From Owenia fusiformis (taxonomy: Eukaryota > Annelida > Polychaeta > Sabellida > Oweniidae): DNA of 64,000 bases. How positions within the stretch are numbered: the stretch's first letter is position 1; the number at the start of each line of letters is the position of its first letter. Made by a program: the position numbers and the translations under genes. A model generated the notes under the pieces. The model worked only from the letters and a program-made list of their open reading frames with translations. It was not told the DNA's origin and ran no database searches. The stretch is from NCBI GenBank assembly GCA_903813345.2, contig CAIIXF020000001.1, positions 48,501,885 to 48,565,884 of the forward strand. Direction: 5' to 3'. Below, in pieces: positions 5,415-48,500 of this stretch.

Positions 5415-8400
5415 TCAGGAAACAGATGCATCATGTCCATTTGTAGGGCGAGTAGTTGTAGAACTGGTGGTTCCAGCACAGCCGGGACAGGTGTGGAGGG
5501 TCTCATGTATGAGTATATCACAGTCAGTACAGTAAAGATGCTTACAGCTTTGACACTGCTGTATCTGGAAAGAATGGGAGTAATGTGATTAATAAAAAGG
5601 TTTTTCAAGTTAGAAAGATGGCGTAGTTGCAAACACTTAAAGGCCATATGAACAATTTATACATTTTCACCAAAAATACAGGATTATTCTCTTGTCTAAA
5701 ATCTAATGCCTGGATTTGTTGAACAGATGAATGAATGGTGTAAATAAAAACAATGTGAAATGCCACCACCTGCCACTTGCTACGGACGCCAGATGCCGAC
5801 ATGTGGAGGTGACATAAAAATGTTATTCTAGACCCCATTTCTATGGTAATGACAGAACTTTACAAGTGTAAATGTTACAAACAAATAACAAGGCATTAAC
5901 ATGCCAGACATGCAAAATGTCACCACCTGCCATTTGTTACAGACACCGAACTCCAGACGCCAACCAATGAATGTGATCACAAAAATTGGAGACCATAACA
6001 ATATGATACCACTTACACAAAAATAATGAACAAACCATGACCATTTGATTGCACAGTATTAAGTACTGGAGTCTGGTAGCAAGTATCAGAAATTGTAAAA
6101 GTGTAACAACTTGACACCACATTATATGCTGGTTACAAAAGACAGTGAAGTGGTGATATAAAAACAGAGAAATCCTAAGTTATTATCATCAGTGAGGAGA
6201 ATACTTACAGTTTGATCTTTGATGGCAACACAACAGGCACTGCAAATTCTAAAATATACAATAATTAACATAGGTAATATAACACAAACAGCTCATACAT
6301 GGAGTAAAATTGTAAGACATTTTTAGGCAAGAGAATCAATGCTGTTAATTTAAAAATATACAGAACACTGAATAGTCTGTTTAACATTGCAATTTACATC
6401 ATGATTTCTGTTTACTTTTTTCATCAGATAGGAAACACATGAATACATGTAAATTATTAATGTTCTAGCTATTGAAAGATGGCGTTATTGTCTGCACTTT
6501 TGAGTTTCACTATACCAATAATATTTCTCACCTTTGTTCTGGAGGTAGTTGCTGTATTGGAATCTCTGTGTAAGCATCCAAGGGGAAGAGATGATGGTAT
6601 GACCTAGCTATATGTGGGGCAGATACCAAAATCAAACCTAATGTAAACAAAATATCATGATTTAGATGCTTTTTGCAAATTAATGTCGATCAAATCCTTC
6701 TAAAAAGTGATTCAACCTTACAAAACCTAAGGGTCAATTTACATTATTATTAAGATTAAAATGAACTCATTGACGGTGCAGAAAATTCTTGAAAAAAGAA
6801 CACCTACCACATGCTTTACACTCTACTGGTAGTTCACAATATTTGCTTTTACAATTTGGGCAGAAATACCCTTCTACACTGAAGCCTTCTTTTGATTTAC
6901 TGTCCAAGTGGCTGCAAAACAAATTAAAAAAAATTACCAAACTTTACACATGTGACGTTAGAAAATATACCATAAGCAAATGCAGGTTTTTGAGTTATGT
7001 ACACTATGGTGTATACCATTCAATGAGATACTGAAAAATTGTACCTAAATTTTGGCAATTTCAGATGTGTGGAACAGCATTTTTTGACATTTCTAATAAT
7101 AAGAACATGTAATTCTCCTTTTCGCGGTTCGGTCTTTGAATCAGAACGTTCGCAAATATGCACTGAAAAGCACTCAAAAGGACAAAATTTGATTGGTCAA
7201 TATTTTCCCACTATGCATTTCGCGTAGCTATTTGCGTGACACGAAAGTTCTAAATCAAACTAATTACTCAATTTTGTTTTTACACCCGCACGCTAAATAA
7301 AACAATGACACCATCGTAAGTATTCTTCTTTGTCATTGCTTTAATAGTCAGTATACCGAGTTTAATCAATAAAAGATTGTACAATGAACAACAAAATTCG
7401 GAAACGAGTGCTTTCGGACCACTGAACAGATTGACCTAGATAATAGCGACGCGTCTTCTTTGATGTCGCAGTTTGTAGTGCGGTAAGATTGGGATGAAAG
7501 TATTGAAAGTCGAATGGAATTGTTTTTTTCCAATATGGCGACTAGTCTACTGATCACGTGACTTTCTCTTCCGGAATATTTTCTCACTTTTCAATCATCG
7601 TTTTCACCACGCTATGAATTAATACAATGAAAAAAATAGCTGTAATATTAAGATTAATGAGAGATCAATCGTTTCTAATAATTTTTTCTGTACTCTCATA
7701 CGGGAATATGAACGAATATATCGTTTGAAAAAAAGGTGTGAAAATCCCCATGTTAAACCTATGAGGGAAAATAAGGAAGTATAAATTTGTTCCTCCGCGA
7801 ACTGCATCATGGGAAATATTTTGCCCTTATAAGGAAAGATTTTCGCGTTTTCTCTTTTGAAGAGGGAACAATGATTTCGAGAATTAAGTGTCAACATTAT
7901 GTCATTCAAAGGATTTACTAGACTCATGAATTCAACTGTTTCTACCCATGTACATATTTCTCTTTCAAAACATGACCAACACTAGTGTGCTGGTACTTAC
8001 AACATGCACTGGAACTTACCACATGCACTGGAACTTACCACATGCACTGGAACTTACCACATGCACTGGAACTTACCACATGCACTGGAACTTACCACAT
8101 GCACTGGAACTTACCACATGCACTGGAACTTACCACATGCACTGGAACTTACCACATGCACTGGAACTTACCACATGCACTGGAACTTACCACATGCACT
8201 GGAACTTACCACATGCACTGGAACTTACCACATGCACTGGAACTTACCACATGCACTGGAACTTACCACATGCACTGGAACTTACCACATGCACTGGAAC
8301 TTACCACATGCACTGGAACTTACCACATGCACATAGAAGGCTTGGTTACACCACCTTCACTTCCTGAGCCCTGGTGAGAAGGAAAACCCATACGGATCAG

Positions 8401-11400
8401 TGATGAATCAGTCTTCACAGTAGCTGGTGGCGGTGTGACGAATTGATGTAACAGATCTTTAAAATGGCTTTCGTCAAGTATTACATTGTATTGTCCATTT
8501 GTTTCTTGGCATATAGTTTTACATATCCTGAGTTCGGCAGATAGTCCTATGACAGAACATCGGATGTTGAGTTCTTTTATATGCTGCAACAGAAATACAA
8601 AGTAATTGGATCATGCACACAAATTTATATACTGGTACAAGTACTTTGTTATATCAAGGTGAAATCATATTCTATTAAAACTAAATTGTCCTTTTTAGGC
8701 ATTTCAAAGACTTCTAACTTCATTTGATTTTCAACTGGATGCAAGGTTAACTGGTAGCTTCAATGCTAGGAAACTCATTAAACTGATTTTAGTTTAGAGA
8801 ATAATTCTGGAAGAAGTAGGTATGTTAACTCTGAACACCTGTGTGGGAGGATGATAGAAAATTTGCATTATATCTCATAAGCCATTTCAGTAATTTGGAA
8901 ACAATACACCCAAATGATGAGAGCTACCTTAATTGTGGCATGTATTCCACTTGGGTCACATGTACTCAGTGCTCCATATATGATCAAAACCTCACGACTC
9001 GTATGACTCGGCATGTGTTGAAGTGTTTGTGCTGCCACCTTGAGACAATTCTGAAGTGATGCTTCACCCTTACATTCCTGTTTGGCTTGTTCCTGTAATT
9101 TGGCAATATGTTTCTTAGGGTTACCTGGAATTAATAATTTAAAAAATTTAATGTTGAATGGGTACAATCTTTAGAATGAAGATAAACATTATTACACTCA
9201 TAATCAAAGTATCAAAATATAAAAACAAGTGTATGTAACTTGTAGAGCAAGCAATTTTTACAGAATGTACGGTCACTTTTTTGCCACAATCTTAGTAACA
9301 TAGCATAGAGAGATGTAAAACATGCAAAGCATTTGATATTGATTGGATAATGGCTAAATTTAAGAAGTATCTATAATTTCGAGAGTGCAGAGGAAATCTT
9401 GCTCTTAGAAAGAGTAAACAATTAATGGTCTTACCTCCAAGTTCTGTTAGTTTATCACAGCGTTTATTCCTGGTTACTAAGATACCAAGTTGGCTTATAG
9501 GGTTTTGGTCAAAATATTCTTCCACAAAGTACTCCAATAACTATAATAATAAAAAATATATATTTTGGAACTCTGTGGAGTTTGTCATTTCACTTAGTTG
9601 AAAGCTTTATTTATTTTGACTGATACCTCCTCAATTAAACATGTAAACCAGAACAACGGCAATGCCAAAGCGTAGCAAATCCCATCGAACAGCCATGGAG
9701 GGGCAGGGTGTCTCAAAAAAATGTACCCAAAACTATATCAATAGCACCGATAAACCAATCAATATTTTTAGACATTTTTTGCATGGTCGTGTAGCCAAAA
9801 CATGAAAGTTTTCTCCCCAATACACCATTTTTATTACAGTCTTGTCTTTTTGATGCTTTAACCCTTTATCTTTTACACCACATAATCGATGTAACCTCGT
9901 ATTTCTATTACAGCCTGTATCCTTACCGCTACATTGTTCATCACATTTGATAATAATTCCAGTGGAATGTTTTGGATTTCTCTTTGGATGTTGCCCTTAA
10001 GTTGTTCTAGATCTTTTTACTTGGAATGAGCATTAAAACACTCCTTTAAATAGCCACAGAGAAAGATGTCTGAGGATGACGATGGCAGAACAAAAACAGA
10101 TAATCAGGTCAATTATCAGCAAATGATTCAGAAGTTACCTTCCAGAGTTAGGCAGGCTAGCCTGGAGACCAAATGATATCCAAATGAAAACACAGTGGTC
10201 TCAAATTGATACACACAACAAAGGCTACATTAGAATCCCAATCAATGCAGTTTCTTTAACCTCTGACCTCTCTGTATAAGGGGGCTATAAGACATTGTGA
10301 AGGCCTCCCTATTCACCATATTTGACCGCCCATAGTTTTTTCTCTGAGGCTATTTGAAGGACCATTTTTATGCTAAACCCAAGCTAAGAGACCTAGAACA
10401 ACTTAAGACCAGGATCCGAACAGAAATCAAAACATTCGACCAGAAATATCAAATGTGATGAACAATGTACTAGTAAGGATGCAGACTGTCATCGAAATAT
10501 GAGGTTACATTGAATATGTGGTGTAAAAGGTAAAGGGTTAAAGAATCAAAAAGGCAAAACTGAATTAAAAACTGTGTATAGGGGAACAAACTTTCATCTT
10601 TTATCTACAAGACCATGCAAAAAGTGTCTGGAAATATTGATTGGTTTGTCTATGCTGTTGATATACTTTTGGGTACATTTTTTTGAGACACCCTATATAG
10701 CAAAAATGGCAGCCATTTTTCAAAATGGGCGCCTTCTACCAAAAGTGTCATTAGACCATGTGCCATACTTATAGTATTCACATACCAAATATGAACAAAA
10801 TCGCTCCACTACTTTTCAAGTTATAGGAAAATACATTAAAATGGTTGCCATTTTTTCGCTTCACTACTTTTCAAGTAATAGTAAAATACGTTAAAATGGT
10901 GGCCGCCTTCTACCAAAAGTGTCATAGGACAGTGTGTCATGCTTATAGTATTCACATACCAAATATGAACAAAATGGCTCCACTACTTTTTGAGTTATAG
11001 TAAAAAACGTTTAAATGGGCGGCCATTTTTTAAAATGGCCGCCTTCTACCAAAAGTGTTTTTAGACAGTGTGCAATGTTTGTAGTATTCACATACCAAAT
11101 ATGAACAAAATCGCTCCACTACTTTTCGAGTTACAGCAAAAATCGTAAAATAACGAGTAAAGGCCGCCATTTTTCAAGATGGCTGCCATGTGCTTCTTTA
11201 ATATCTACACTTCTAGCTTTATTAATGTCCTATATAATTTTTTTACATCTAAAACATATTGCTAATACAATTTTACATATTGCACCTAAATTACTGTAAA
11301 TTCGGCACTAAAATGGCCGCCATTTTGAAATGAGCGGCCATTTTGAAAATCGGCTTTCGAGAAGAACTTCTTCCCCCAATGGGTATATGTGTACAAAATA

Positions 11401-14400
11401 TGAACAAAATCGGGCCAACGGTATTTGAGTTATTGCTCGGACGGACGGACGGAGGCGTTCCCTATATCCCTCCGAATTCGTTCGATGGGATAATAATTTC
11501 TAAGATATTAAGAATGAAAGGGAAGATCAAATAGGTAAACAAAGAAACAAACGGTAAACAAAGAAACAAATCAGGTTGTTTTTGTTTGTTTGTTGTAACA
11601 TTAACAGCATGTTAAGATTTCATTGGTTTTATCAAAATCTTGTGTTACCTTCAAGGAAGATGCAAGTCTAGTTGGCTTTAAATCAGGTATTGACATAGCT
11701 TCAGACATATCAATGATGATGTACAAGTGACGCATCTGGAAAAGTAAAATCATGAATCCTCAATGTAATAATAACCTCTTGTTAACTATTATTTTAGATT
11801 TCTGAATTTTTATTTGTATTCGGAATGGCAGATTCGAGTCCATGCATTAAAGATACCTAAATATACCATATTTAAATCTTTATTCATCTGTCTTTTTGGA
11901 TAACCGTACTCAAAACCTCAGAACAATTAGAACTTCAGTCATTTATGAGAATAAATTGAATTGAATACCAGGTTATTGATTACGGCTTTGAAAGTCAATG
12001 CAAATGTGTACAAAAAAACATAAAGTATTTCAATCTATAAGATAATAACATGAGCTGAACATACCATTCCCAGTTTGGCATTAGATTGTGCTTCCTGTAG
12101 ACGCCGTTTCTTTGCACGATGTATGATGTCATTAACTGATGTTTGCAAAGACCCCGCATCATTTTCTTGTATTGCTTCCCTAAAATGTTACAAAAAAGGT
12201 TTAAAAAGTGTTGGATCTACAAAATTTTATGTATACTTTAAATCCAATTTTCAGCGCTGAACAAGGATGCGAAAGTATGTGCATATATTAATTTACATGA
12301 TGTTATGCTTTACAATAGTCATATACATATAAGCTATCAATACTCCAGGTTTGCTTAGATTGAAGGGTTGGGACACAGAGTTACATTACAGAGGAGTATG
12401 GGTGGGGGTATGGGACACTAAATTAAAGCTCAGATGGATAAACTTGTACTTTAGTATGTTAGGGTTAAGCCTAAAGATATAGCATTTGCTTATGCCATTC
12501 GTGTGCAATATGAATATATTATTCTCTATATTATTGCATATATTCAATAGTCTTTTGATTTCTTATTTTTTAGGTTCAACCGGTTGCCTTGAAGCAGTTT
12601 ACAGACTTTAACAAATGCTCGTTTAGAAATTTAGTGACTGCAGTAAAATTTTAAATGTTTGGAACTACATGTACTTTGAATCTAAAAAATAAGCAATTAA
12701 AGGACCATATTCAAACAGAATATGTAAAAATAGAAACATTTATACATGTCCTAACTTTTGTACATTTTAGTTTATATTTAAGAAATACAGACCGAAAAGG
12801 ATGGGTTATATCGTCGAATACACCCCGCAGGGCTAGGCACAAACGTTTTCTGTGCCCCGAACAACCGAAGGGAGTGAGGGGTTCGAAAGCTTTTGTGCCT
12901 AGCCCCAAGGGGTGTATTCGATGATATTACCCCTGCTCCGAGGTCTATATTACGATTCGAACATGAAAACTCACCAAATTGTTTTGAATATTCATCATGG
13001 TCCGCCATTACTACGACCCACCATTATGACGTCACACATTACACATATTAACTGGGGTATTGATCGCGAATATATCCCAGGTGAAATGTTGACTTTGTTT
13101 ACCGTTTACAGAAGGCGTGAATACAGTCATGTTCGAATGTAGTTTAGCTATCATATCTGTGGCCTCTTATATTTTGATGCTTCTCTGCCATGTTATTTTT
13201 GAAAAAATTAACATGGCTGAAACTCCCTAAATTACAAAAGGCCACAGCTTTGCTGCACATTATATTTACTGTTGCAATATTGTCATTTGATTGCTTATTT
13301 TTTAAATTCAAAGTAATTCCAAACATTTTACTGTAAAGTGGTGAACATACAGGCCTGTAGCCAGGGAACTTAAAAATTTGAACTAGCTCATTGTGACAAC
13401 TTTTATGATTGAGGTTAATTAATGTCTCCGACTGTAGTCTCAAAATTCTACAGTTCTACAGAGCCTACGCCCCTTAAGGGAGCGCTAAAGTTAATCAAAA
13501 GTACAAAAAATGGCAGCCATATTTTTTTGATAAAGTGACAAGATTTTGATCTGTATCAAAATCTTGTGACTTTATCAAAAAAATATGGCTGTTATTTTTT
13601 GTACTTTTGATTAACTTTAGGGGTTTGTAGAAAAAACCGGGTACTGGGTAGTAAATCCTCCATGCTGGGTTCAAACTTGGTAAAAAACAGGTACCCAAAA
13701 AACGAAAATACGCATATATAACATAATTAGATCATTAGAAAATGTGTAAGATTTGTTTTGAATTTACAAAAACGTATGTAACTTCCTTCAAAATTGAGCT
13801 AGACGCTTCAAATATAAAAAGCATTTTAAGGCTCTTTTCTTCCTCTATCTATTATGGGGGGTGGGGGGGGGGGGTGCGATCGCACCATCACACCCCCTCC
13901 TGGCTACGCCTATGACATTGTAAGACGTAACAATTTACACTTCAGTGGACGTTTCGTCGAAAATTGGGATAACTTAAATTATGATTAATAATCACGTTGC
14001 ATCATGTAAATTAACACAAGTCACCTCTCTGCTAAAGTAACGTTAGCTATTCACAGATTTAAATCATAATCAAAACAATTCACGTACCAACATACGAACT
14101 ATATATTGAAAATAGAGTAAGATCGATTTGTCATGTTTTTCAAACCGTCTTACAATGTCATAGGCGTAGCCAGGAGGGGGGTGGGATGGTGCGATCGCAG
14201 CCCCCCCCCCATAACCAATGAAAATATGACCATGATGATAGAGAAAGAAAAGAGCCTTAAAATGCTTTTTATTTGAAGCTTCTAGCTCAATTTTGAAGGT
14301 TACATATATTTTTGTAAATTCAAAACTAATCTTACACGTTTTCTAACGATCTAATTATGTTATATATTCGTATTTTTCGTTTTTTTTGGGTACCCGTTTT

Positions 14401-24500: not shown

Positions 24501-27500
24501 ATAGAATGATACCACTTGACTTGCATTGTGCATTGCAAACTTTGTCTTATTTCAGATCAAAAAGATTCTTGATGGCCGACTGTTTCCAATGAAAGCTATG
24601 GGATACTTTGCAGTTGTCACAGGCAAAGGCAATACCAATGACAGCATCCAAACTATCAAAGATTATGAGGAAGGATTTTTCAGGAACTCTAAACTATTTC
24701 GGTATGTGTTCCATTTTTGCTTTGATTGTTGGCTACGGTTGGATTGCTATAGGGATGACTTAGCTGGAGTTTGGTTTCTATAGTGATAAGTTGACTATTG
24801 TTGGGTTGTTATAGAGATACGTCATGATAAGATGTAACAGGAAGTCAATGTTTTGTGAAAGATAAAGCTAATTTATTTACATTGAAGATACGGTATTGCT
24901 ATATACGAGTGCAGTAATCATTTTCCTATTGGTGTGATACAAGAAAAGTAATAATATACAATATATTTTATATAAGATTTGGTTGCTTTAATCTGCAGCA
25001 GTCACATGTTTGTGGATTTTGTAATATTTGTTATTAAATACAAGAAGTAATTCTAGCAGTTTGTATGTCATTTTACTTGGGAAGAACCTTCCTTTTTTAT
25101 CCTTTTTTGCCTTTCATATTTGCTATAAGGAATCTAGCAAATTTGAACAACTTAAACTCTGTATATTTTCAAGGCTGCTTTTTCGAAAGAGTAGTAAAAG
25201 TTACTACCACGGTTTGTTAGCTTTGTTGGCCACGTGTACCATGACATACATGCCATGTGGGGACAGTATGGTCCACCTTGATAATGACCAAAAAGATTGG
25301 CAATTTGACAATAATCATACCACCAGGCACCTTTGAAGAGCTGTGCACAGTTGGTTGTTTCAACTCTATCATTGTCTTGGTCATATGTTGAAAATTTCTG
25401 TCCATTATGGTATCTCATAGAGTCTCCAGCAGTGCCAGAATATCCAGTGATATTAAGACGGTATTTATCACTCTCATCGGCTATTGAAAATGTGGAATAT
25501 TCCGCAAACCTAGAAGCTGGAGTTGTAGGAGGCCAGGCTGTTAGTTCAAATCTAGCTTTAAAGCGACGCTCCTGTAATAAACTTGCAAGATTATCTAATC
25601 CTATAAAATGTTCAGCATCTATGTCCCCAAAGCCATGTTTGCAATCTGCCCATGGGCGAGTGAAATTAACGCTCCCATCAAATCTCTTGAAAATGTAAGT
25701 CCAACCTTGGTCACAGTAGACACTAAAGATTCTTCGAGCTGTAGTTCTTATTGTTTGCACACCAGTTATGGAAGTGTCTTCTCCACAATCAGTCATATAT
25801 GCTACAAGAAAATATAGGCAAATGCAGATTCAATGGCTTGTGTTGCAAATGACACATACGAGAGGCAAAAAAAGAATGGAAAATAGTATAATGATTTTTA
25901 TTATATAAAGCAGTAAGAAACCAAATTTTTTTCTATTTTGTAACTGGTAATTGATAAACACATAAAAAACCATGTGCAGTATGGCAAGTGATTTTAGACG
26001 GTCACATCTTTCACCATGAGTACTTTCTGGGCATAAATACAGTGGTTTTCATTAAAACAATATGTTTTCTTTCAAGTGAAGTATCCATGATGATAAAAAT
26101 ATAAATCAAACAATTCGAAAAACTATGAATGGGGACCCCATGTCAACATTTTTTTCAAAATATTGAACCTGTTTACTCAAAAGAGGATCTTCTTTTTCTG
26201 ATTTTTATTGCACGAAAACATTATTCAACAAGGGGTCTAAGACATGTTCAAAAATAGAATGGTATTAAAAGTCTAGTTTTGAAGATATCAATTTTTGATG
26301 ACCAAAATTATGCTGAAAACAATGGATAGCACGAGTTTGCCCTATGGGAAAATAACATGGGATATGTGGTTTTTAACTTTAACTCATTTCAATACCCACC
26401 TCCTTTTCAGAAATTGTTAATATAGTGTTGAGGAGACTTTTGATATAAATTAAGAAAAACAAGATCCTCTTTTTAGAAAATAAGCCTAACATTTTTCAAA
26501 AAGTGCCAAGGTGGGGCCCTAATCCATAATTTTTCAGAGAGTTGGATATTTTACTATCATGGGAACTTCACTTGAAAAAAAAACATATTGTTTCAATAAA
26601 AGCCACTGTATTTATGGCCAGAAAATACTCATGGTGAAAGATATGACTGTCTGAAATCACTTGCCATACTGCACATGGATCTTTACTTGTAGAAACACTT
26701 CCAACTTTCTCAAATCTCTTTAAACATCATAAAGCATCATTCATTCTCTGAATTCATATGTTCTCTAAGTATGATATGTGGGATTCTCTCCTATGCCTGT
26801 AATGCTAAATATAAACACTTTGAATCACCATTTTTAACCTCTTGACTACCCAGAGTGACGAGATTTCTCGTCACCTCAGAAATGACCTTGAAACCCAGAG
26901 TGACAAGATAATCTGTCACAAAATTTTTCACTAAAATTGCTCTTATTTGAACAATTTTTATCCAATTTACACAAAAATTGTTTTAAAATGTCTAGAAATG
27001 ATCTCTGCCATCTAATTTTACTAAATTGAACATCATCTGTTGTATATGTATGTAGTAAAATGTCAAAAGCTGGCAAAAATGAAAAATTATCTGGTTTCAA
27101 CCTATTTTAGTACCTGGGATTCAAGAGGTTAATGGAAGTAGGTCAATATGACAATTAATATTTAATCAGTTCACCTATCACAAATACAAATGAGCCAAGC
27201 CACAGGAAAAGGGGTCTTATCACAGATTTTTTCAATATTCTTATTTTTTGTTTATCTTAAAAAGCACAAAGAGACCTTTCAAATGAGCCATGACTTGTGT
27301 TTTAACAATTTTTCCTTGCATATGTAGACCAAAAGACAGATTTGAATTAAGCACATTTCCCTCTTAATCTTGGGCACATTTTTGGCTCTGTAGAACAATT
27401 TTAATTTTTGTGATAAGACCGGTTTTCCTATGGTCAGGCTCAAATATTCCATTAAATTGGTCCATATGAAAGCAAGTAATATGCATTAGGTAAAGGAGTA

Positions 27501-30500
27501 TCAAAGTATTTGGGTATGACCTCCCTTTTAATGCTTATATTGTTCTAGATGCTAATTGTTATTAGTGTTACCAACAGGTGGCTGAGTTCCCATTTTCTAT
27601 TGAAATATATATGTATGTATAAAAGATGTTTAATCATCTCTCAATTGTCTCACCTTTAGGTCTTTGGCTGCCTTTTTCCCCTTTAGGTCCACTAGTACCC
27701 TGGTCACCTTTAGGTCCAGCAGTACCCTTGTCACCTTTAGGTCCAGCAGTGCCCTGGTTACCTTTTGGTCCAGCAGTGCCCTGGTCACCTTTAGGACCAG
27801 CAGTGCCCTGGTCACCTTTAGGACCACCTTTGCCCTGGTCACCTTTAGGTCCAGCTACGCCCTGGTCACCTTTAGGTCCAGCATTGCCCTGGTCACCTTT
27901 AGGTCCAGCAATGCCCTGGTCACCTTCAGGTCCAGCAGTGCCCTGGTCACCTTTGGGTCCAGCAGTGCCCTGGTCACCTTTAGGTCCACCTTTACCCTGG
28001 TCACCTTTAGGTCCAGCAATGCCCTGGTCACCTTTAGGTCCAGCAGTGCCCTGGTCACCTTTGGGTCCAGCAGTGCCCTGGTCACCTTTAGGTCCAGCAG
28101 TGCCCTGGTCACCTGTAGGTCCAGCTATGCCCTGGTCACCTTTAGGTCCAGCTATGCCCTGGTCACCTTTAGGTCCAGCAGTGCCCTGGTCACCTTTGGG
28201 TCCAGCAGTGCCCTGTTCACCTTTAAGTGCAGCAGTGCCCTGGTCACCTTTAGGTCCAGCAGTGCCCTGGTCACCTTTGGGTCCAGCAGTGCCCTGGTCA
28301 CCTTTAGGTCCAGCAATGCCCTGGTCGCCTTCAGGTCCAGCAGTGCCCTGGTCACCTTTGGGTCCAGCTATGCCCTGGTCACCTTTAGGTCCAGCAGTGC
28401 CCTGGTCACCTTTAGGTCCAGCTATGCCCTGGTCACCTTTAGGTCCAGCAGTGCCCTGGTCACCTTTGGGTCCAGCAGTGCCCTGGTCACCTTTAGGTCC
28501 AGCAGTGCCCTGGTCACCTTTAGGTCCAGCAGTGCCCTGGTCACCTTTAGGTCTAGCTATGCCCTGGTTCTGTAGATGAAATATTTGCAAATTATTGTTA
28601 TGTTATAGTTATTTTTGTAAATCATGTTCTTGTTTCCGTGATACTAGAAATAATTCAAAATCAAATAATCAGAATAATTATGAAATAATATGATACTCAA
28701 GTGATACTCACTGCTTGTATTTGACTGTAATTGGTCTGTAAATCCTGAACAGTTTTCTCAAGTTCAGATACCCTATGTGCATGTTCCTCTAATCTGTGTA
28801 TTTGTTCTTTCATTTGTATATTTTCGTGTCTCCATGTTATGACATCATCGCAAGCTGGCATCAAGCTTTGGATCGCTGAGAATTTTGTGCAGTTTGATGA
28901 GATTTTTGAAGTAGTTTGCTGACAACTAGATAAGCTAACCATTAGCCATAAACCTAAGATATGTTTTAACCCCATGTTGAATTGTTAATCCTTTTTAGGC
29001 TTCACAACAATGGTTTATATTCTGCTGTTCAGTATCACATGATCAGAAATTATTAGGAGTTCCCTTTTACTTTTATAGGTACAATCATGTATTAGCATTT
29101 TTCATGATTTTGTCAATATTGTTATTATCATTATCCCATCGAACGAAGTTCGGAGGGATATAGGGAACGCCTCCGTCCGTCCGTCCGTCCGTACGTACGT
29201 CCGTCCGTCCGTCTGTCCGTCCGTCCGGGCATTAACTCAAATACCGTTGACCCGATTTTGTTCATATTTTGTACACATATACCCTATGGGGGTAGAAATT
29301 CTGCTCGAAAGCCGATTTTCAAAATGGTCGCTCATTTCAAAATGGCGGCCATTTTAGTGCCGATTTTACAGTAATTAAGGTGTAATATGTAAAACTGTAA
29401 TAGCAATATGTTTTAAATGTAAAAAAATTATAAAGGACATTAATAATGCTACAAATGTAGATATTAAAGAAGCACATGGCAGCCATCTTGAAAAATGGCG
29501 GCCTTTACTCGTCATTTTACGATTTTTGCTATAACTCAAAAAATAGTGAAGCGATTTTGTTCATATTTGGTATGTGAATACTATAAGCATTGCACACTGT
29601 CTAAAGACACTTTTGGTAGAAGGCGGCCATTTTGAAAAATGGCCGCCATTTTAACATATTTTACTATAACTCGAAAAGTAGTGGAGCGATTTTGTTCATA
29701 TTTGGTATGTGAATACTTTAAGCATGGCACACTGTCCTATGACACTTTTGGTAGAAGGCGGCCATTTTGAAAAAAAATTGAAAAATGGCCGCCATTTTAA
29801 CGTATTTTACTATAACTCGAAAAGTAGTGGAGCGATTTTGTTCATATTTGGTATGTGGATACTATAAGCATGGCACACTGTCCTATGACACTTTTGGTAG
29901 AAGGCGGCCATTTTGAAAAAAATTTTGAAAAATGGCCGCCATTTTAATGTATTTTACTATAACTCGAAAAGTAGTGGAGTGATTTTGTTCATATTTGGTA
30001 TGTGAATACTATAAGCATGGCACACTGTCTATTTCTAATGACGCTTTTGGTAGACAGTGGCCATTTTGAAAAATGGCCACCATTTTAACGTATTTTACTA
30101 TAACTCGTAAAGTAGTGGAGCGATTTTGTTCATATTTGATATGTGAATACTTTAAGCATGGCACATTGTCTAATAAAACTTTGGGGAGTAGTCGGCCATT
30201 TTGAAAAATGGCCACCATTTTTATGTGTGTTATTTTGCAAGTACGTGTGCGATTTTTCAAAAATTTTAGAGGTGGCTACTTTAAAGCATATTATTTCTTC
30301 TGATGACAACTTGGCTAGTGAGCAACAATTTTGAAAATGGTGGCCTTTCTGGTGTGTTGTTTTATGATATTTGCTATTCGTTTGTAAAAATGCCAGCCAT
30401 TTCTGTTCGATGGGATTCGCTACGCTTTGGCGTTGCCGTTGTTCTTTTTAATTTTTTCCTCTTTCCTTTTTCCTGTTTTTAGCTAGGCATCATCTTTGTC

Positions 30501-33500: not shown

Positions 33501-36500
33501 TTAAAATGCTACATGATTGCTTACTGTGTATCTATCAGTAGTCTATTTCTAGTCACACTTTCCTCAAAGTAAAGCTGTTCTAATTCATTGCTGGCCAAAG
33601 CTATTTTTGGCAATTTTCAGCAATGAGTTAAACCATATATACAAATATATATTGGTTACTCAATAAGACAGTAAGGAATATTACAGTAAATAATAAAATA
33701 TTTCATTCTTTGTTTTCTGTCACTTTCACAAACAAACTATTCCCCAATCTTTAGGCTCAATAGAAAGAAATATAGTAGATGAGTAACTAGATAATTAATT
33801 AAATATATACACGTATGTCTTTTCTAAATTGCAGCAACAAGGTTCAATCTGGAAACTGAGTGGAAAAATACATTCCCTAAACTCAGGCAGCTTGATAGAG
33901 TAAGTATTTCATCTTTAAAGCAGTTTGATATGTCATTTTTTCTACTGAATACAAGTAATAGTCTTTTAACTTGGCTATCAAACAAGTATGTCTCATTTTA
34001 ATACAGTAAAGCATGAAATACCTGTAAAAGTGAAACACCTCATAAGTGGAAAACTATTTTGAGGTGCCCACTTAACCATGCTTTGCTTTACTTCGACATT
34101 TGTCAGAGTAATCTAGCATATACTGGTACATCTTGTTTAATATGTATGGCATTTGTACTTTTTTGCATTGTTCTTTCCAGGAGGAATTATTTGAAAAAGC
34201 AAGAGGTGAAATCTTGGATGAAGTGATCAATCTAAGTCAGGTCTCTCCTAAGCAATGGTATGTATACTCTACTCAGACTACTCATATGTATACAGCAGTT
34301 GATTATTAAGTAAAACATTTACGATCAGGCCCGCAGCCAGCTTTTTGTCAAGGGGGATTCACTTTTCAGAAAAATTCATGGGGGGTTCACTTGACAAATT
34401 TTGATTCAAAATCACATGAAAAATGCTCAGAATCATGAAAAACTGCATAATTTTGAAAGAATTTTTAGCCAGCTCAAACCCCCTGGCTACGGGCATGACC
34501 CTGCTTAATAATGCTTTGGAAGAGAAATTCAAAAGATACGCCAATGTTACTCTTTCAATCCTTTTCATATCATATGGAAAAGTATTGTGTTATCTGATCA
34601 TATATGGAGGTTATTCTAGATTTATAAATGATTGTTTTGCACGTTGCATTGTATTTTTTTAACCCTTTCACAACGTGAATATAAAAGGAAAATGTTGGCC
34701 CTGATGATGGATAAGTAAGAGCAGTTTTTAGGGGAAAACTGCAAATTACCTATGCCCGGGGACCTGTACCTTGAATTTTATCACTGAAATACAATTTTTA
34801 GTAAGAATTATTACATTAGAACAACTTGTCAAAATTTGGTGTAAAAATATTGAATAGAACTGGAGATATTGTCATTTCATTGATGTATATAAATAAAAAT
34901 AATGGTGCCAAAAGGAGCTGATTGTCCTGAAAGGTATTACATAATGGGGCTCCATATGGAGCCTATAACACTGAAAGGGTTAAATTGTTGTCCTATGTGT
35001 TTGGCTCTTAGAGGCAGAATCAGAGATATAGGGGATGACAAAATTACAACATGTAGAATTCATCTGTCATGTTGTTCTTTACCATCCCATGAATATTATT
35101 TCTCAAAACATCCTTAATTTCATTTTCATATCAGATATCATATAGTGATGTTATTTAACACATAAACTTTGGGGAGTTTTAGCAAATAGATTAGAATTAT
35201 CAAGCATCCCCACATTTGTTTTGATTGCCGGACTAGGTACTCAGATCACGAAATATTGTATTTCAGTTCGGTTCCGGAACATATTAATCCGACCTTTCAC
35301 ATATATGATTAGTCAGCCTGTAAATTATAGTAGGCAATTGTGTACTGAATTCTACATGTGAATTTAATATAATTTTTCTGATTTTTTCCAGTTGTTTTAA
35401 TACTTTATTCCTGTGGACAATAAGTGGTCCATCCCAGGGGGGGAGATTTTCCAAAGATGCCCTATCATATTAGCACGTTCGAAAACAAATTTTATAAACA
35501 GGCCTCAAATTGCCATTGAAATGGATCTCCAAATGTTCACTGTAGCTTTATGAGTATTCTCTACAAGTATGGATCGAGTAACTATAATAGTATTACCGTA
35601 GGTTTGAAATGATGATGTTGAACTGATGTTAACGCCATTCCCAGGATTTCAAATTTAACTCTGCGCATGCGCAGCACTGAGAGAGCACGTGCTCATGATT
35701 GTTCACGTGATCGAATCCTGCAATTTGATTGGAGATGATATAAGAGATGATGTAATGGGGAATCCCCGAATACGATAGAATATGAAAGAATTATGGGAGC
35801 TACTCACTCCTCCTGGGTCCATCCCTAAATTAAATGCTAGAAACTAACCTGCTCTGGAAAAAATTGTTTCAAAACATTTGTAAGGAATGACATAAGAAAT
35901 TGGATTTAGAATTGAAACTGTTTTTAGGAAGGTTGGTCGCTAGATCTGATTCTGACTTTAATTCCACACAATCATCTTTGCTTAGTGGGGTGTGTGGTAA
36001 AATGTTGTTTCATGAACTAAAATGTATAAAATCATACATTTTATTGTTCAAAAACCCAATTGGCAATTTCAGAAAAGTAGTGCACAATAAGTTTTACATG
36101 TACAGTCTTTTTAAAACCTGTAGTATATTTGTGTTTTATGTTTATAAAGGGAGGAAGCATTCTCTAGGAAACTATGGGACAGAATGTCAGAACACGTGTT
36201 TGAGTCCATATACCTGCCTGCTGCCCAGAGTGAAAATATAGGGTAAGATAACAAACATTGTGCTATAATAGACATTGTAAGATAACAGTTATGTAGGATA
36301 ACAGACATTGTATGATAACAGACATTGTAAGATAACAGATATTACTATTTCTTTTTATAAGGGAATCATGCAACTCCAATTATAATTGAAATACGGTAGC
36401 CATACATAGTGATCCTAAGATAATTCCTTTTTATCCCTTGGTTTTCAACTGTTCCTTTCAGTATTCCATGTAAATTTATCCCATCGAACGAAATTCGAAT

Positions 36501-39500: not shown

Positions 39501-42500
39501 GTACCCTAATTTTCACTATATTCGCTGAAGAGGCTAGACGGTGGAATTAAAGGCACAGTGAATATTTGATTTAACATTGAATTTAACAATTGAATTTTAA
39601 CATTGGATATTCCTTCAAACAGTGGAATTTAATGCCAATGAAACATTTCAGATTGACAAAATAGTGAAAAAATTTTGTCAGCGAAAATTTGGGCTTTTAC
39701 AGTATGTAATTGGTGTTATAAGTGGTGGGATATTGGTAAAATCTCCAACCTATATGTAGACGATGTTCGGCAGTCAGCATCTAGCAGTTGACATTCAGCA
39801 ATTGGTGTTTGGCATTCAGTGACTGTAACAAATGGCAGGTGGTGACATTTTGCATGTTAATACCATGTGTTTAATTTTCAATCAACATGTTATAGTATAT
39901 CTGATTTTGGATTGCATTAAAAGCTTGATCATTTTTTTATTTTCTACTCTGAAAGGCAATGTTAACAATGAGACAAATGTGTCAGTTTCATTGTCTATTT
40001 AACGTCTTTGAAATTTCAGAGAAATGAAAAGCTAAATTTGTCACTGTAAGAATTGGCATTTAATTTGCTCTTTTGTATCTCATTGAGAACTTGATTCATC
40101 TTAAAGCTATTATTTTTATGACTCTCGGAGGTCACATTGTTTGTGTACGTAGTTTACATTTGTAATTTGACATTCATTAATTACTAAGCCCAGGCTGGTA
40201 GCTAGTTTTTTCCAAGGGAGGCTTCACTTTTTAAAAAATTCCAGGGAGGGGTTCACGTCATTTGACCATTCTGAGCCAATGATGAAATTGTGCATGATTT
40301 TGAAAGAATTTTTGGCCAGGGGGAGTGCTTGGACGGTTTGAAGCCCCCTCCCCACCTCCTTTTCCTTGAAGTCAAAATGTTGAATGGTCCATCAAGGAAA
40401 CCTCAGATTTATACTGTCAAGATATGTTAGTCCCTGAGCAAGCATACATCGAAAGGATATGGTCCTGTTGTGCTGCTATCTGGCAATGGTTTGAGAGTAG
40501 GTAATTCGGCACCTTCAGGGAGCGCCAGTGTATACCTCTGTAAGATAGCTGTGGAGAAGAGAAATATTTCCATCCTAGCGAGTGATTCTCCTAGACATTT
40601 TCTTTTCCCTGCAAGTATAGGCCAATCTTTCATATTTTCTCATATGTGCATTCACATCGTGGCAATGAACCTATATATATGACGCTATTGATGTGAAAGG
40701 GTCAATTTTGCTCAGAAGCTCGAAACGGTAGAACATTCAAACATGTCATCAGGAAGTTATAAATTAAACTCCCACCAAAGTGGAGCAACTTTTATGATTG
40801 GATATCCAATGTTCATCACAAGTCTATATATTACATGGCCAGTCTGTGTGGCAATGCCATTACAGCAATTAACATAGGATTTTATCCTGTGTTTGATATT
40901 AACTTGATATAGAGGCTGCATAATTGCCAGATTTGTACCTAGGGATCAGTAATTTGTTTTTTGTTTATGATGCAACCTGGTACAAAGTATTTCTGTGAAT
41001 AAAGTTTGTAAATGACAAACACTCTTCCAGTAGAGCTCATAAAGTTCAGAGATTCAAACTGAATAAAATTATTTTCAATGAAATATAATACTTGACATTT
41101 TACTTGTTAGATATGGAACAATGTAGGGAGCTGTATATGACCCTTTAGTGGCATCAATTAACTTTCATTTGAAAATAACCATGAAGAATTAATTGCAAAA
41201 TGTAGCGAATAAATAAAAATGTATGTACAAGTGCCAAAAAAGGAAAGTGCCAAAGGAAAGGAAAGTGCCAAAAATAGTATAAAAAGAAATGGCACTTGTA
41301 TGGATAGTTATGATAGCTTCAGTCTAGTTGTGAAGTTATAAATGTTTACCTGTAGAAAATGTCAAGATGTGGTCATCTAGGTGAAATTTTCCATTTTCAT
41401 CAAGGAATCTTTCAGGCCTAAACACATGTGGGTCCTTCCAGTAATCTGGATCATGGTGCACTGCGTACATGTTAGCATGGAAGGTTGTTCTTGGTGGATA
41501 AATGTAATTCTGAAATATAACATACACGTTAGCATGGAAGGTTGTTCTTGGTGGATAAATGTAATTCTGAAATATAACATACACATTAGCATGGAAGGTT
41601 GTTCTTGGTGGATAAATGTAATTCTGAAATATAACATACTGTTAGCACGAATGTTGTTCTTAGTGGGTAGATGTACTCCTGAAATAGAACATCACGGATC
41701 GTGGAAGGTTGTTCTTGATGGGTCGATGTAGTCCTGAAATAGAACATCACGGATCATGGAAGGTTGTTCTTGCTGGGTAGATGTACTCCTGAAATAGAAC
41801 ATCATGGATCGTGGTAGGTTGTTCTTGGTGGGTAGATGTACTCCTGAAATAGAACATCACAGATCGTGGAAGGTTGTTCTTGGTAGGTAGATGTACTCCT
41901 GAAATAGAACATCACATATCATGGAAGGTTGTTCTTGGTGGGTAGATGTACTCCTGAAATATAACATCACAGATTGTGGTAGGTTGTTCTTGGTGGGTAG
42001 ATGTAGTCCTGAAATAGAACATCACGGATATATGAAGGTTGTTCTTGGTGGGTAGATGTACTCCTGAAATAGAACATCACGGATATAGGAAGGTTGTTCT
42101 TGGTGGGTAGATGTACTTCTGAAATATAACATCACAGATTGTGGAAGGTTGTTCTTGGTGGGTAGATGTACTCCTGAAATATAACATCACAGATTGTGGA
42201 AGGTTGTTCTTGGTGGGTAGATGTACTACTGAAATATAACATCACAGATTGTGGAAGGTTGTTCTTGGTGGGTAGATGTACTCCTGAAATATAACATCAC
42301 CGATTGTGGAAGGTTGTTCTTGGTGGGTAGATGTACTCCTGAAATATAACATCACCGATTGTGGAAGGTTGTTCTTGGTGGGTAGATGTACTCCTGAAAT
42401 ATAACATCACCGATATTGGAAGTTTGTTCTTGGTGGGTAGATGTACTCCTGAAATAGAACATCACGAATATAGGAAGGTTGTTTTTGGTGGGTAGATGTA

Positions 42501-45500
42501 CTCCTGAAATATAACATCACAGATTGTGGAAGGTTGTTCTTGATGGGTAGATGTACTCCTGAAATATAACATCACAGATTGTGGAAGGTTGTTCTTGGTG
42601 GGTAGATGTACTTCTGAAATATAACATCACAGATTGTGGAAGGTTGTTCTTGGTGGGTAGGTGTACTCCTGAAATATAACATCAAATATTGTGGAAGGTT
42701 GTTCTTGGTGGGTAGATGTACTCCTGAAATATAACATCACAGATTGTGGAAGATTGTTCTTAGTGGGTAGATGTACTCCTGAAATATAACATCACGGATC
42801 GTCGAAGGATGTTCTTGGTGGGTAGATGTACTCCTGAAATAGAACTTACATGATAACATGGAAGCTTGTTTTTTGTGGATAGAAAGTTAGTTACTTCAAA
42901 CAACAATAATAACACATGCACATGTACTTAAAGGAACATTCCTGGCCAAACCTTTTCTATCCTGATGTGATAGCTACAATCATATATATATATACTTTCC
43001 ATATTTAGCAAAACACCAGAAAATGTTTTAACATAGTCAATATTGATAATTTAAAAATATAGTGATCATTTCCAGTAAGCTGCCATCTTTTAAGATTTTA
43101 CTCAGGAAGTGATGTCATCGACTCTCAACTTCCATGACTTTGCATATAACAGTATAAGGAAGTAGCACAAAAACACTTCTAGACAAGTGGTTCTTACTTT
43201 ATGTGCAAACATATTTTCAGAGTTTGTGAGCTTAGAATAATAGAAGAGACTTATAGAAGGATTAAACCATAGACAAAATTGAAAAAAAATGCACAGCTGG
43301 TTTTTGTAATTCTTAATAGCTCCTTATAATGTTATATGCAAAGTTGAGAGTCGATGACATCACTTCCTGAGTGAAATGCTAAAAGATGGCAGCCTACTGG
43401 AATTCAGCACTACATTTTCGAGTGATCAATACTGACTATATTAAAACATTTTTCCCTGTTTTGCTAAATATGGAAAGTATATATATGGTTATAGCTACCA
43501 TATTAGGAGAGAAATGGTCTGGCCAGGAATGTTCCTTTAAAGGATATATTTGAATTATTTTCACAAATGATGCTTCATAAACAAACCCATTGACTTACAC
43601 CAAGTTTTATTGGCACCCTTCCACTGCAGTTGCCTAAAGATATTGGTGTAAGGCTGCACATCCTCTGTGCCTCTGTATAGACAGCCTCTGTGTATGGAAG
43701 TAGTACTCTATCACGCATGGATGGCATACGATCCTGGCCAATCACATCGTGAATTTCCTGGCGTAGTTTTTTCTGGATTTCTGGATGGTGAAGGAGCTGT
43801 AAGAACAGCCACCTAGAAGTAATGAGAAACTTTTGCAGAATAAGTACGCAATGATTGGGTTTATATATTTTGATTTTAAAAGAATAATGCACTGATAATG
43901 TGGCTGCGTTGGAGTAGGAGTAGTTACCTTATGTTCGTAGCAGTTGTATCAGTGCCTGCCTGGAAGAGGTCTCCTATAACATGTAGCAGTTGGTCCTCTG
44001 GAAAGAAATTTTTAGACAACAACATACAGAGTGACCCAAAAACAGAACTGCTCAAAATTGTAATAATTGTAATCAAGCTTATTTTCTATTTTACATTAAT
44101 ACTGTGAGCTCTTCAAAGTACATGTATAGCCTTATCGTCATATTTGGTCACTCTCTGTACTATACCCTTAACAAAACAAATAGAGAAGCAAAATGTCAAA
44201 TGAAGAATGTCGTGAAAGGGTAACTTAACTGTGAAGTATATCAAACTGAAGTATACAATACAATGCTTAATGGTTTTTGAACATGAATTTAAGCAACAGT
44301 CCCAGCTAAATGTTTTTAATGACAGAGTCATGGCAAGTCTTACCATTAAACCAATGCTGTTGTGGGTCATCTTTTCTTTTCTTTATCTCAGCTATATAGG
44401 CATCGATGAAGTCCTCTATATTCTCAGGATCAAACTTTGCAACATGAGCATCATACTCTTTCTTGACAATATTAAAATAGATCTCATCCATATTTTCCTT
44501 AAGGCGTTTCATCTTGAATAGGTCTCCTGGCAGACATTTACTTAGTAGTGTTGCTCCTGGGATAAAGGCAGCTAGACTTGCACGCTTGAAGTTCACGCTG
44601 AAGTTTTCATCCATTAGGTAAAGCATGCGATTCAGTACCGGATCATCATATTCAAATCTATGTCCGAAAACCATTGAGCAGATGACATTAGTGACAGCAT
44701 TAGTTAAGGTGCTAGCTTTCATCTGAAATGCCGACCCGTTATAGCTATCAAACACTTCGAAAAGACTTTCCAGCTCAGATGTGATCATTTTCTCCAGCTT
44801 ATTCTTCCCAAGACCAAAATCTCTGAGTGTACTAAGGGCAAATCGCCGCTGTTCTTTCCAGCGTGGTCCTTCAATCCCTACTAAACCACCTAATACCATC
44901 TCTCTTGTTTCACTATCACTACGCCCAGCAAAATCTTCACTGTTAAACACCTGTTGTATGTCATCATAGTTATGTAATAGCACTGCATACTGTCTCCCAA
45001 AATAAATTCCAAGTGTTTCGCTACCAAATTCTTTTGTCATATCTATAAGTTTCCTTGCAGTTAGATTGCCAATTTTGTCATCTGGGTCAGGCTTGAACAG
45101 ACCCATATTACCGACCAAGAATTTAGGGGGAGGTCCTGGGGGTAAAATCCAAGGACTGGGTTTGAATTTTCGGTAGAGAATTAAGAAGACAATCAGGAAT
45201 ATGAGGAGTGATGTTAAGTTGTTCAGCAGGACCTCAACTAGGGTATCTGTTAACCCCATATTGTCTGGAATGAAAATATTATCTTATCTTATCTATATCG
45301 GGAATTCACAATACTGTCATCTCATCCTGCCTACAATGAACATTATTATCATTTTATCCTGTCTAGAATGAACAATATTATTGTGTCATCCTTTCTAGAA
45401 TGAACATTATTATCATTTCATTTTGTCTGAAATGAACAATATTATTGTGTCATCCTTTCTAGAATGAACATTATTATCATTTCATTTTGTCTGAAATGAA

Positions 45501-48500
45501 CAATATTATTGCGTCACCATGTCTAGAATGAACAATATTATCATTTCATTTGTCTAAAATGAACAATATTATTGTGTCATCCTTTCTAGAATGAACATTA
45601 TTATCATTTCATTTTGTCTGAAATGAACAATATTATTGCGTCACCATGTCTAGAATGAACAATATTATCATTTCATTTGTCTGAAAGGAGCAATATTATT
45701 GCGTCACCCTGTGTAGAATGAACAATATTATCATTTCAATTTGTCTGAAATGAGCAATATTATTGTGTCATCCTATCTAGAATGAACAATTTTATTTCAT
45801 TTTGTCTGAAGTGAGCAATATTATTGTGTCATCCTTTCGAGAATGAACAATATTTTATCATTTCATTTTGAAATAAATAATATTACAATTTCATCTTTGT
45901 TGAATAGATGGCAGATAGATATGTAGATAAATACTCTATATGGTTGAAGTAGTTATGGTCAGTTATACCATTACATATGTATGTAGAAAGATACAACATA
46001 CCAAATTACCTTAATGTAATCCTCTATTTTTGGTATGCAACTAGAAGATCTTAACATGCAGATTGTGTTTTGACCTGTATAAAATTATGATAATCTAGAA
46101 TAGAGTATCAACTGCAAGGGGAGTAAGTCACCACTCCCTCTAATATTGTTATATTCTGTAGCCTTTTATATAGAGAATATTAGAGAGGTGGTAGATGGAC
46201 TGACTTACTCCCTGTGATCAACTGAAAATATTTTTGTCACGAAACCAATGTGTAAATCAGGCTCTCCTAGTGGAAAGAAATGAAGAGAATTCAAATGTTA
46301 TCTAAATGAAATTATAGCATGACACGATTTATGGCTAGATGCATATAGAAATGAATAACTAGAATTAAGATAGACTTAAGACTTACCTTCTACTTTAGTG
46401 GAGCCCTGCTTGTCTTGTGATATCACTTGTATTCAAATATCTTCTGTTTCACAGTTTTTAGACCCTTTGTGAAATCATATCATTGACATTGTATGTTGCC
46501 CGTATGTTAACGGTACTTGACATATATAGATATCAGTTTTACTGCAAACAATTGATAAATGGATTCTATACTATAGTGGATATATTTACCGTGTTTGTAG
46601 TTACAAAAGTTGTAAAACTGTTTAGTGATAAAGTACTTGTTCATTAAATGTTATTCATAATGATGAACCATTGTGCCCGTGCTATGGTTATTTTCATTTC
46701 CGTACAGTTATAGGGCTTTTAGGTTTACTTTTTTCTATTTCAAATATTGCACTAAACTTTATACTAGATATAGAGGTTCTTGTATTAGTACTTGTGCAAG
46801 ATCATTCATTCGTTATGAGCTTTGATGATTCTTTTTATTGAGTTGAAGACGAGAATGTTTTTCTCATTTGACTCTGTATTAGGCCATATTTTCAACTTTT
46901 TAAAATAAAACTGAGTAAAAATAGCTTCAAATTAATGAAACTTCATCTTTTCTTTCAATTGTTATGACGTCGATGAAATATGGCAATATCTTGCATGGGG
47001 TAAAGATGGTTGTATCTTTGTTAGTCATATGAGAAATAGTATTACACCAAAGCCTCTCAAATGAACAGAACTTGAAATGAGGTTGGTAAACAAGCAACAG
47101 AGAGTAACCCAATTGAAGTGTAAAAACTTTCAGAAATGCATAGATTGAAGTCTTTGTTTATGAATAAAATTGTTCGAAAAAATTGTTGCTGTGTCTGGAG
47201 GCCTTTAACACAGTGACAATAAATGATCCATTTTATTTGCGAAATATCTATTTAAGAATACATTTTGCAGTAAGATTGTGCCATAAACAAGCCAAAAAAA
47301 TAAGATTTATTTTGAATTTCTCAAAAATTGATGCTACTTCCTTCCAAATTGAGCTAGAAGCTTCAAATGAATCGCATTTTAAAGCTCTTTTCTTATTGGT
47401 TATGGGGGAGGGTGCGATTGCACCCATCGCTATGCTGATGTAGTGTATATTGATACATGTACCTAGAATTCAATATGTGCTGTACATGTATGTTATATGT
47501 TTTCTAGATCAGGGAGACTTGGCACCCCATATATAGGCAAAACTTTCTCAAGAAATCGCTAGAAAGGACCAGGGAGTGTAAGAAAGGATTCTACTACTAC
47601 CAAAGAGGATTTGGAGATCAGGGGGTACGTTGTCCATTGATTTGTACTTCTAGTCTGTAATCATGGAAAATAAGGAGGTACATGTGCATATATTTACATA
47701 TATTTGCAGATGATAGTCTATGTTTGTCCTCATATTCATGGATATAAGGATTTTACTTCACTATTATAAAGAAAACTGCATTTTTGTATTATAGATGGAA
47801 TGCCATGATGTTGTATTATTCTGGAGGATAGAGCGTATGTTACAAACCACCAGCAATGCTCTCAGACAACAAGTCATGAACAATGAAGGTAAGCAATGCC
47901 CTTAGACATTAAGTCATGAATAATGAAGGTAAGCAATGCCCTCAGACAACAAGTCATGAACAATGAAGATAAGCGGTGCCCTCACACAATAGGCTGTGAA
48001 CATTGAAGGTAAGCAATGCCCTCAGACAATAAGTCATGAACAATGAAGATAAGCAAAGCCCTAAGACAACAAGTCATGAACAATGAAGGTAAGCAATGCC
48101 CTCAGACAATAAGTCATGAACAATGAAGATAAGCAAAGCCCTAAGACAACAAGTCATGAACAATGAAGGTAAGCAATGCCCTCAGCTCAGACAACAAGTC
48201 ATGAACAATGAAGATAAGCGGTGCCCTCACACAATAGGCTGTGAACAATGAAGGTAAGCAATGCCCTCGGACAACAGGTGATAATCAGTGAAAGCAAGCA
48301 TGTTTACACAAAAGATATTCCATTTTATATACAACCATGCAAAATTCTTCCCTCTGAGTCTCTGTAGTATTTTCATCAGAAATGTATAATTGTAATCATA
48401 CATATATCCCAAGTAACATTTGTAACATGTGTGTTTTTCCAGCCAGAAGACTGGAAAAGAATGTAAAAGAAGTCTTAGAGCAGTATGGGGAAGATGATGC

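Follow-up and report, generated by a model that had tools for sequence, protein, structure and literature searches.

The window analysed here, 64,000 bp of the genome of the annelid Owenia fusiformis (C1:48501885-48565884; genome of 498 Mb in 525 contigs), carries the genes GTF2H2 (p44) and OPA1 and a P450 gene, the last of which (window 40430-45283, minus strand) is nested in an intron of OPA1 on the opposite strand. Splice junctions of all three genes adjoin tandem arrays of short units, and arrays of the same kind are found at donors and acceptors of many unrelated genes in the genome. A sequence-only reading of the window had named five such arrays, placing every one at a splice junction and describing each as copies of the exon-intron boundary. 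Tandem arrays were called with Tandem Repeats Finder (TRF), and exons were modelled by tblastn with human OPA1 and GTF2H2 as guide sequences. A script then refined 70 splice sites on the basis of 24 exon pieces of OPA1, 9 of GTF2H2 and 5 of P450; the junction list is partly script-made, and P450 exons 2-3 and some P450 sites are poorly resolved. An earlier figure of about 45 introns in the window holds as an order of magnitude, with 70 splice sites listed for the three genes. TRF calls and exon models place four of the five named arrays against real splice junctions (Table 1), and the exons at three arrays are backed by Pfam domains (Ssl1, OPA1_C and p450).

The composition of the units differs between the arrays. 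The GTF2H2 exon ends at 8324 according to tblastn and the splice-site script, and the unit there consists of about 9 nt of exon tail and 10 nt of intron. The unit of the downstream OPA1 array comprises 37 nt of exon tail followed by GTA; its first donor yields a frame in which OPA1 reads on across the splice, and this exon and the next, joined manually, match OPA1_C in Pfam at 5.6e-24. At the P450 exon-4 acceptor, put at 41509 by the splice-site script, the last unit is made of 13 nt of intron and 44 nt of exon. The upstream OPA1 array is of another composition: comparison of exon tail and unit found no exon copy, and its units contain intron sequence only. The array before P450 coding exon 1 is the weak case. 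TRF reports it with periods of 32, 64 and 127 bp (8.6 copies at 64 bp), it stops 36 bp short of a putative acceptor of the 5' untranslated region at 45272, and the script found no alignment between exon and unit (e = 1), a partial look-alike of about 20 bp being visible by eye only. The earlier claim of junction position is thus upheld for all named arrays except this last one, and that of boundary copies for three: GTF2H2, downstream OPA1 and P450 exon 4.

Table 1. Arrays and adjoining exons in the window
Feature	Position in window	Strand	Evidence
19-bp array, 18 copies, GTF2H2 (p44) exon donor	7990..8332	-	TRF, sequence, unit anatomy
GTF2H2 exon terminating within first array copy	8324..8583	-	tblastn, junction script, Pfam Ssl1 1.3e-8
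OPA1 exon 5' of 17-bp array	36150..36242	+	tblastn, junction script
17-bp array, 6 copies, from OPA1 intron +1 (upstream OPA1 array)	36243..36343	+	TRF, sequence, unit anatomy
P450 exon (PPRTT segment), acceptor arrayed	41350..41509	-	Pfam p450 5.1e-14, junction script
55-57-bp array, about 25 copies including authentic site, intron side of P450 exon-4 acceptor	41478..42883	-	TRF (55 bp, 25.5 copies), sequence, alignment
64-bp array 5' of P450 coding exon 1, relation to acceptor putative	45308..45870	.	TRF
OPA1 exon terminating within first array copy	47795..47888	+	tblastn, junction script, Pfam OPA1_C
40-bp array, 10.5 copies, at OPA1 donor 47888 (downstream OPA1 array)	47852..48276	+	TRF, sequence, unit anatomy

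Random placement of 16 arrays against 71 junctions yields a mean of 0.9 contacts at a tolerance of 6 nt, against 4 observed (P = 0.010-0.012), and of 1.5 at a tolerance of 40 nt, against 5 observed (P = 0.011). The window alone gives a P of only about 0.01, and by themselves its statistics are weak evidence, because the 16 arrays were hand-picked from the TRF list, with coding repeats and many small rows excluded, and the window was itself chosen, post hoc, for its junction arrays.

The case for a wider phenomenon rests on the rest of the genome, which was searched for three copies of a donor word at array-like spacing, with the same word reversed as control. The word CAGGTAAG gives 202 triples against 63 for its reverse (13,495 against 11,848 single words), and AAGGTAAG gives 188 against 89. 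Matches overlap within arrays, and places were counted instead: from C1 to C8 19.7 Mb for CAGGTAAG and from C1 to C7 9.7 Mb for AAGGTAAG, taken as complete up to the last place. Eight places of one dispersed CAGGTAAG family and two of one AAGGTAAG family were dropped before counting; the listed places of the former include C1:38277825, C3:7460328, C4:3454492 and C5:12849927. Among the matches listed in its span CAGGTAAG has 26 places, 18 of which were fetched, against seven places for the reversed word in the same span and ten in all; by the single-word ratio the difference has P 0.045 for 18 against 7 and P 0.002 for 26 against 7. A coding exon ends at a donor within the first array copy in 12 of the 18 CAGGTAAG loci and in 11 of the 16 AAGGTAAG loci fetched. 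In three others the array begins beyond the real donor, by 44 and 68 bp in L002 and L018 (CAGGTAAG) and by 71 bp in L083 (AAGGTAAG), where apparent degenerate copies, as judged by eye, lie in between. Taken together, 23 of 34 donor-word arrays lie on the end of a coding exon and 3 of 34 lie 44-71 bp past one; no exon was found at four CAGGTAAG loci (L001, L005, L008, L015) and four AAGGTAAG loci (L073, L078, L081, L087). Arrays with long units (45-75 bp) have an exon end at three of five newly fetched places; the corresponding CAGGTAAG triples, 483 against 63, are dominated among the matches listed by one C1 array.

Eleven of the 23 exact donor calls have a Pfam or PDB match at E <= 0.01 (L003, L007, L011, L013, L014, L016, L074, L075, L080, L082, L084). 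The families matched by exons ending exactly at the junction include EHMT (1.6e-16), an SNF symporter (3.4e-14), tRNA_bind (1.9e-12), ARL8 (5.5e-12), NCS-1 (2e-10), PF15874 (7.6e-8), Peptidase_M24 (2.7e-7), RecQ zinc (3.1e-7), kringle (6.6e-6), dynein (9.8e-5) and Ku (0.01), and the near-junction loci L002 and L018 have database matches as well. Hand-trimmed peptides from 25 of the 34 donor loci were submitted to Pfam (all except L001, L005, L008, L015, L073, L078, L081, L083 and L087). As a random control we took 20 CAGGTAAG places, every fifth listed, all within the first 3.8 Mb of C1; 19 of these entered the Pfam set, L060 being too short and L057 being submitted in two frames. One of the 19 has a Pfam match <= 0.01 (ERCC4), against 7 of the 18 CAGGTAAG array loci (P 0.017). 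By eye, 3-8 of the 20 random words are possible donors, which compared with 23 of 34 gives P 2e-4 to 0.045.

If 12-40% of the words are donors, arrays are 3-15 times commoner at donors than at the same word elsewhere, and the array rate off donors, 0.08-0.12%, comes close to the control-word rate of 0.096%. Arrays thus appear to be more frequent at junctions than at the same word elsewhere, and such an excess would require that arrays be born more often or live longer at junctions, beyond being tolerated there. The control-word arrays were read for open frames only; on that reading two resemble coding repeats and no junction was recognised among them.

A sample drawn without regard to repeats comes from the P450 family, for which there are 106 matches (92 of 718 candidates scored), those listed lying on contigs C1 to C12 only. 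Nine paralogs sharing the exon-1 layout of the window gene were chosen blind to repeats and annotated from its exons. One of them (L111) carries about 10 copies of a 91-bp unit (3266-4158) at the exon-4 acceptor, the same junction that is arrayed in the window gene, and its unit copies some 66 nt of exon as judged by eye; in another (L112) a 64-bp unit is repeated 8 times at the exon-3 donor. Junction arrays are accordingly present at 2 of 54 junctions between mapped exons (the total would be 72 on the supposition that one small exon per gene was missed), which does not differ from the window's rate of 4 in 71 (P 0.70). Three further TRF arrays in paralog introns, two in L110 and one in L114, lie away from junctions. 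In both L111 and the window P450 array most inner copies begin with GAG (Glu) in place of the Asn or Asp codon of the real exon.

These samples bear on the simplest alternative, namely that the arrays are ordinary minisatellites in a genome rich in them, of which a few chance contacts with junctions have been noticed. Arrays away from junctions are indeed common, and the window alone offers a P of about 0.01 for a feature chosen after the fact. Chance contact, however, does not readily account for exon ends at 23 of 34 donor-word arrays when about 3-8 of 20 random CAGGTAAG words are possible donors, nor for junction arrays in two of nine paralogs picked blind. Furthermore, the six of 18 CAGGTAAG loci off exon ends (two near one, four with none) are about as many as the seven control-word loci of the same span. 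We regard this explanation as unlikely.

Acceptor words were counted in the same way. Triples number 211 for TTTTCAGG against 32 for the reversed word (singles 55,592 against 23,493) and 121 for TTTGCAGG against 37. Twenty TTTTCAGG places were fetched out of 32 distinct places among the matches listed, and in four of them the 3' edge adjoins a coding exon: L038 (TMEM144), L039 (HMA), L043 (Nic96) and L048, the last called by frame only and giving no PDB match. For TTTGCAGG the figure is 8 of 14 fetched places, and four of the eight exons (L095, L099, L101, L103) have a match at about 0.01 or better. Matches of acceptor exons include Nic96 (1.6e-15), TMEM144 (1.5e-11), a relative of aryl-alcohol oxidase (1.3e-4), HMA (2.3e-4) and EGF (3.2e-4). 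The enrichment of arrays at acceptors is only suggested by these data, because the comparison rests on reversed-word counts and not on random acceptor words. The genome-wide samples thus support the idea, raised by the sequence-only reading, of a local duplication process seeded at junctions; this support is fuller for donors than for acceptors.

The anatomy of the units was examined in 31 donor arrays by aligning the end of the exon, without gaps, to the first unit inside the intron; the donor arrays L002, L018 and L083, which lie past the donor, and L111 and L112 are outside this set. The tail of the gene's own exon is present in the units of 28 of the 31, which agrees with the earlier statement that the arrays are not one mobile element. 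Apart from the two dispersed word families set aside before counting, the same unit was not encountered at unrelated places, as a mobile element or introner would have it, though no genome-wide search was made with every single unit. The exon-intron boundary lies inside the unit at GTF2H2, downstream OPA1 and P450 exon 4, and the same holds for 26 of the 28 fetched donor loci that were measured; L019 and the upstream OPA1 array are confined to the intron. Unit length is free of any frame constraint: it is a multiple of 3 in 8 of 28 donor arrays, and a role as amino-acid repeats was rejected since the other 20 lengths are not multiples of 3; the copies are accordingly not maintained as coding repeats.

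Where the unit ends is less evenly distributed. A breakpoint test was run on 28 of the 31 arrays, with lengths entered by hand from the ungapped alignments; left out were two arrays that lack an exon part (L019 and the upstream OPA1 array) and L076, whose unit could not be resolved. In 15 of the 28 the unit includes at most 7 nt of intron; uniform breakpoints would give 5.8 such arrays (P 8e-5), and 3.7 if the donor must also be retained (P 1.6e-7). The null is simple, and the skew of the unit end towards the donor edge reads as real. Inspection of nine array ends by eye revealed no consistent pattern of microhomology at the edge of the duplication.

We consider it likely that the arrays are junction minisatellites of the type called 'mirages' in amphioxus, expanded by tandem duplication and passively tolerated. 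A stretch of about 17-90 bp spanning, or more rarely abutting, an exon-intron boundary would be duplicated in tandem and would then grow by slippage or unequal exchange. If the unit contains a working splice site, the copy adjacent to the exon would keep the function and further copies would land in the intron; the exon-like copies would be tolerated by the gene because the extra copies are spliced out with the intron. As judged from sequence, the exon-proximal site is presumably the one used.

Several results pull the other way. Eight of the 34 donor-word loci have no exon, and 12 of the 23 exact donor calls lack a database match at E <= 0.01; these twelve we take to be exons from an open frame that ends at the donor and from resemblance to familiar protein families, and PDB searches with L012, L017 and L086 gave no match. 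Judged by Pfam matches alone, array loci (10 of 34) stand out only modestly from random places (1 of 19; P = 0.036), the contrast in donor position weakens to P = 0.045 if 8 of the 20 random words are true donors, and a codon-usage score does not separate arrays from random words. Six of 12 acceptor arrays (L038, L039, L048, L094, L098, L103) share just 3-7 nt with the exon. Triples of GGTAAGT are fewer than those of its control, 558 against 909. As a genome-wide count these triples were rejected, since overlapping matches in giant arrays, counted many times, dominate them; two GGTAAGT places were fetched (L019, L020).

Beyond passive tolerance, junctions might act as mutational hot spots at which tandem duplications arise. 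The 3' break would then fall at the edge of the 5' splice-site consensus, with R-loops, pausing of transcription or local breaks among the conceivable causes. The short intronic part of the unit (15 of 28 against 5.8 or 3.7 expected) is what such breakage would produce, and the estimated 3- to 15-fold excess of arrays per donor over arrays per non-donor word, together with the arraying of the same acceptor in two distant P450 paralogs, points in the same direction. The intronic part, however, has a lower bound that follows from donor keeping and from the search word used; a uniform null is a crude one, and exon copies that have diverged can escape an ungapped alignment. Neither microhomology nor a break signature is established, and differences in the lifetime of arrays could mimic a higher birth rate. 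Hot spots are accordingly a possibility that we entertain with some doubt.

The P450 exon-4 array raises the question of selection, which might keep redundant or decoy splice sites or use the copies as alternative sites. The AG is intact in all 24 extra copies, and hence in 25 of 25 rows with the authentic site; the core TATTTCAG, its variable neighbours aside, shows no change across the 25 rows, in contrast to many of the columns derived from the exon, which vary. In this one array, the AATTACATTTAT version of the exon is common to the two copies nearest the exon and absent from the other 22. The invariance of the acceptor core may reflect either recent homogenisation or constraint, and copies within one array are not independent, so that the P450 pattern may be of the former kind. 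In the downstream OPA1 array, by comparison, 5 of the 10 listed extra copies have lost the GT (5 of 11 junctions, counting the intact authentic one); neither of these two window arrays had been selected through a motif search. Splicing at a downstream copy would in most cases change the reading frame, since 20 of the 28 unit lengths are not divisible by 3. The preserved AG notwithstanding, selection for redundant or decoy sites, one of the ideas attached to the window at the outset, is improbable on this evidence.

Another of those ideas took the arrays for remnants of intron gain. In the Rogers model, a segment holding AG/GT is duplicated. The model makes a new intron from exon, whereas the Owenia arrays lengthen an existing intron. 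It also predicts a downstream exon with an array-like start; OPA1 (past the downstream array) resumes with CCAGAAGAC and GTF2H2 with CCACTTGGA, not with GTAAG, and both arrays are followed by non-repeated intron sequence. A duplicated boundary is nonetheless the raw material of the Rogers model, and such an origin has been proposed for amphioxus globins (PMC3087553), with gain by tandem genomic duplication described for potato RdRp (PMC4974935). For the arrays of the window we give this origin hardly any credence.

Other repeats of the window are of different kinds. Collagen-like and fibrinogen-like open frames lie on the minus strand within an OPA1 intron (window 25155-28984) and include a coding minisatellite with a unit of 27 bp (GPKGDQGTA). 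Motifs resembling AATGGCCGCCATTTT characterise tandem repeats of some 135-146 bp, which occur at 10801-11146, 29513-30221 and 54883-55641 of the window and at 2381-2800 of L110, in the intron of a P450 paralog, and probably represent a dispersed tandem element. A long open frame at 60035-62362 of the window, minus strand, contains a 60-bp coding repeat (KRFLGSALNAMNRxAKDTND) in about 30 copies and looks like a neuropeptide precursor.

The kind of structure described here is already known; what is new is another genome, the many genes affected and the bias in the unit end. Mirages were reportedly first described in Canestro 2002. In amphioxus they are boundary-spanning tandem repeats of Adh3 and of the globins BflGb6 and BflGb9 (PMC3087553), with PGBD5 as an additional lancelet gene (PMC3902484); these papers further cite retinol dehydrogenase, presenilin and troponin C. 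Their units measure 10-72 bp in Adh3 and 150-160 bp in the globins (PMC3087553, PMC3902484). RT-PCR (reverse transcription followed by polymerase chain reaction) suggests that regular splicing is undisturbed, and copy number is unstable (PMC3087553). The Owenia arrays resemble them in spanning boundaries at 5' and 3' splice sites, in their many signal-bearing copies and in the variety of unit lengths. In contrast to the amphioxus mirages, known from a handful of cephalochordate genes with RT-PCR and copy-number instability on record, the Owenia arrays occur in many genes and are known from the sequence of one assembly; they have also been counted against a reversed-word control and the intronic share of their unit measured. 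In human segmental-duplication paralogs, variable internal tandem repeats with units of about 30 bp include some at exon-intron boundaries (PMC2812944); these differ in that the paralogs are recent and primate, half of the repeats are coding and novel introns were inferred. The intronic minisatellites of an earthworm metallothionein gene are not placed on a splice junction in the text available (PMC12783039). Among the openly licensed PubMed Central papers listed in our searches there was no report of junction arrays from a non-chordate, which does not prove that none exists.

The published amphioxus mirages that we found are described gene by gene. If the same process operates genome-wide in a distant animal lineage, it becomes countable and datable, and testable as a source of intron length, of cryptic splice sites and of intron gain. 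Gene predictors, for their part, face many near-identical splice sites in tandem. It is conceivable, though on balance we doubt it, that junctions are true birth hot spots in the genome of Owenia fusiformis, with units tending to end just past the 5' splice-site consensus and the break set by splice-site recognition or by transcription at the exon end; introns would then lengthen, and occasionally new splice sites or introns would arise, as exon tails are copied again and again in no fewer than two distant lineages, amphioxus being the other. The skewed position of the break makes such a mechanism testable.

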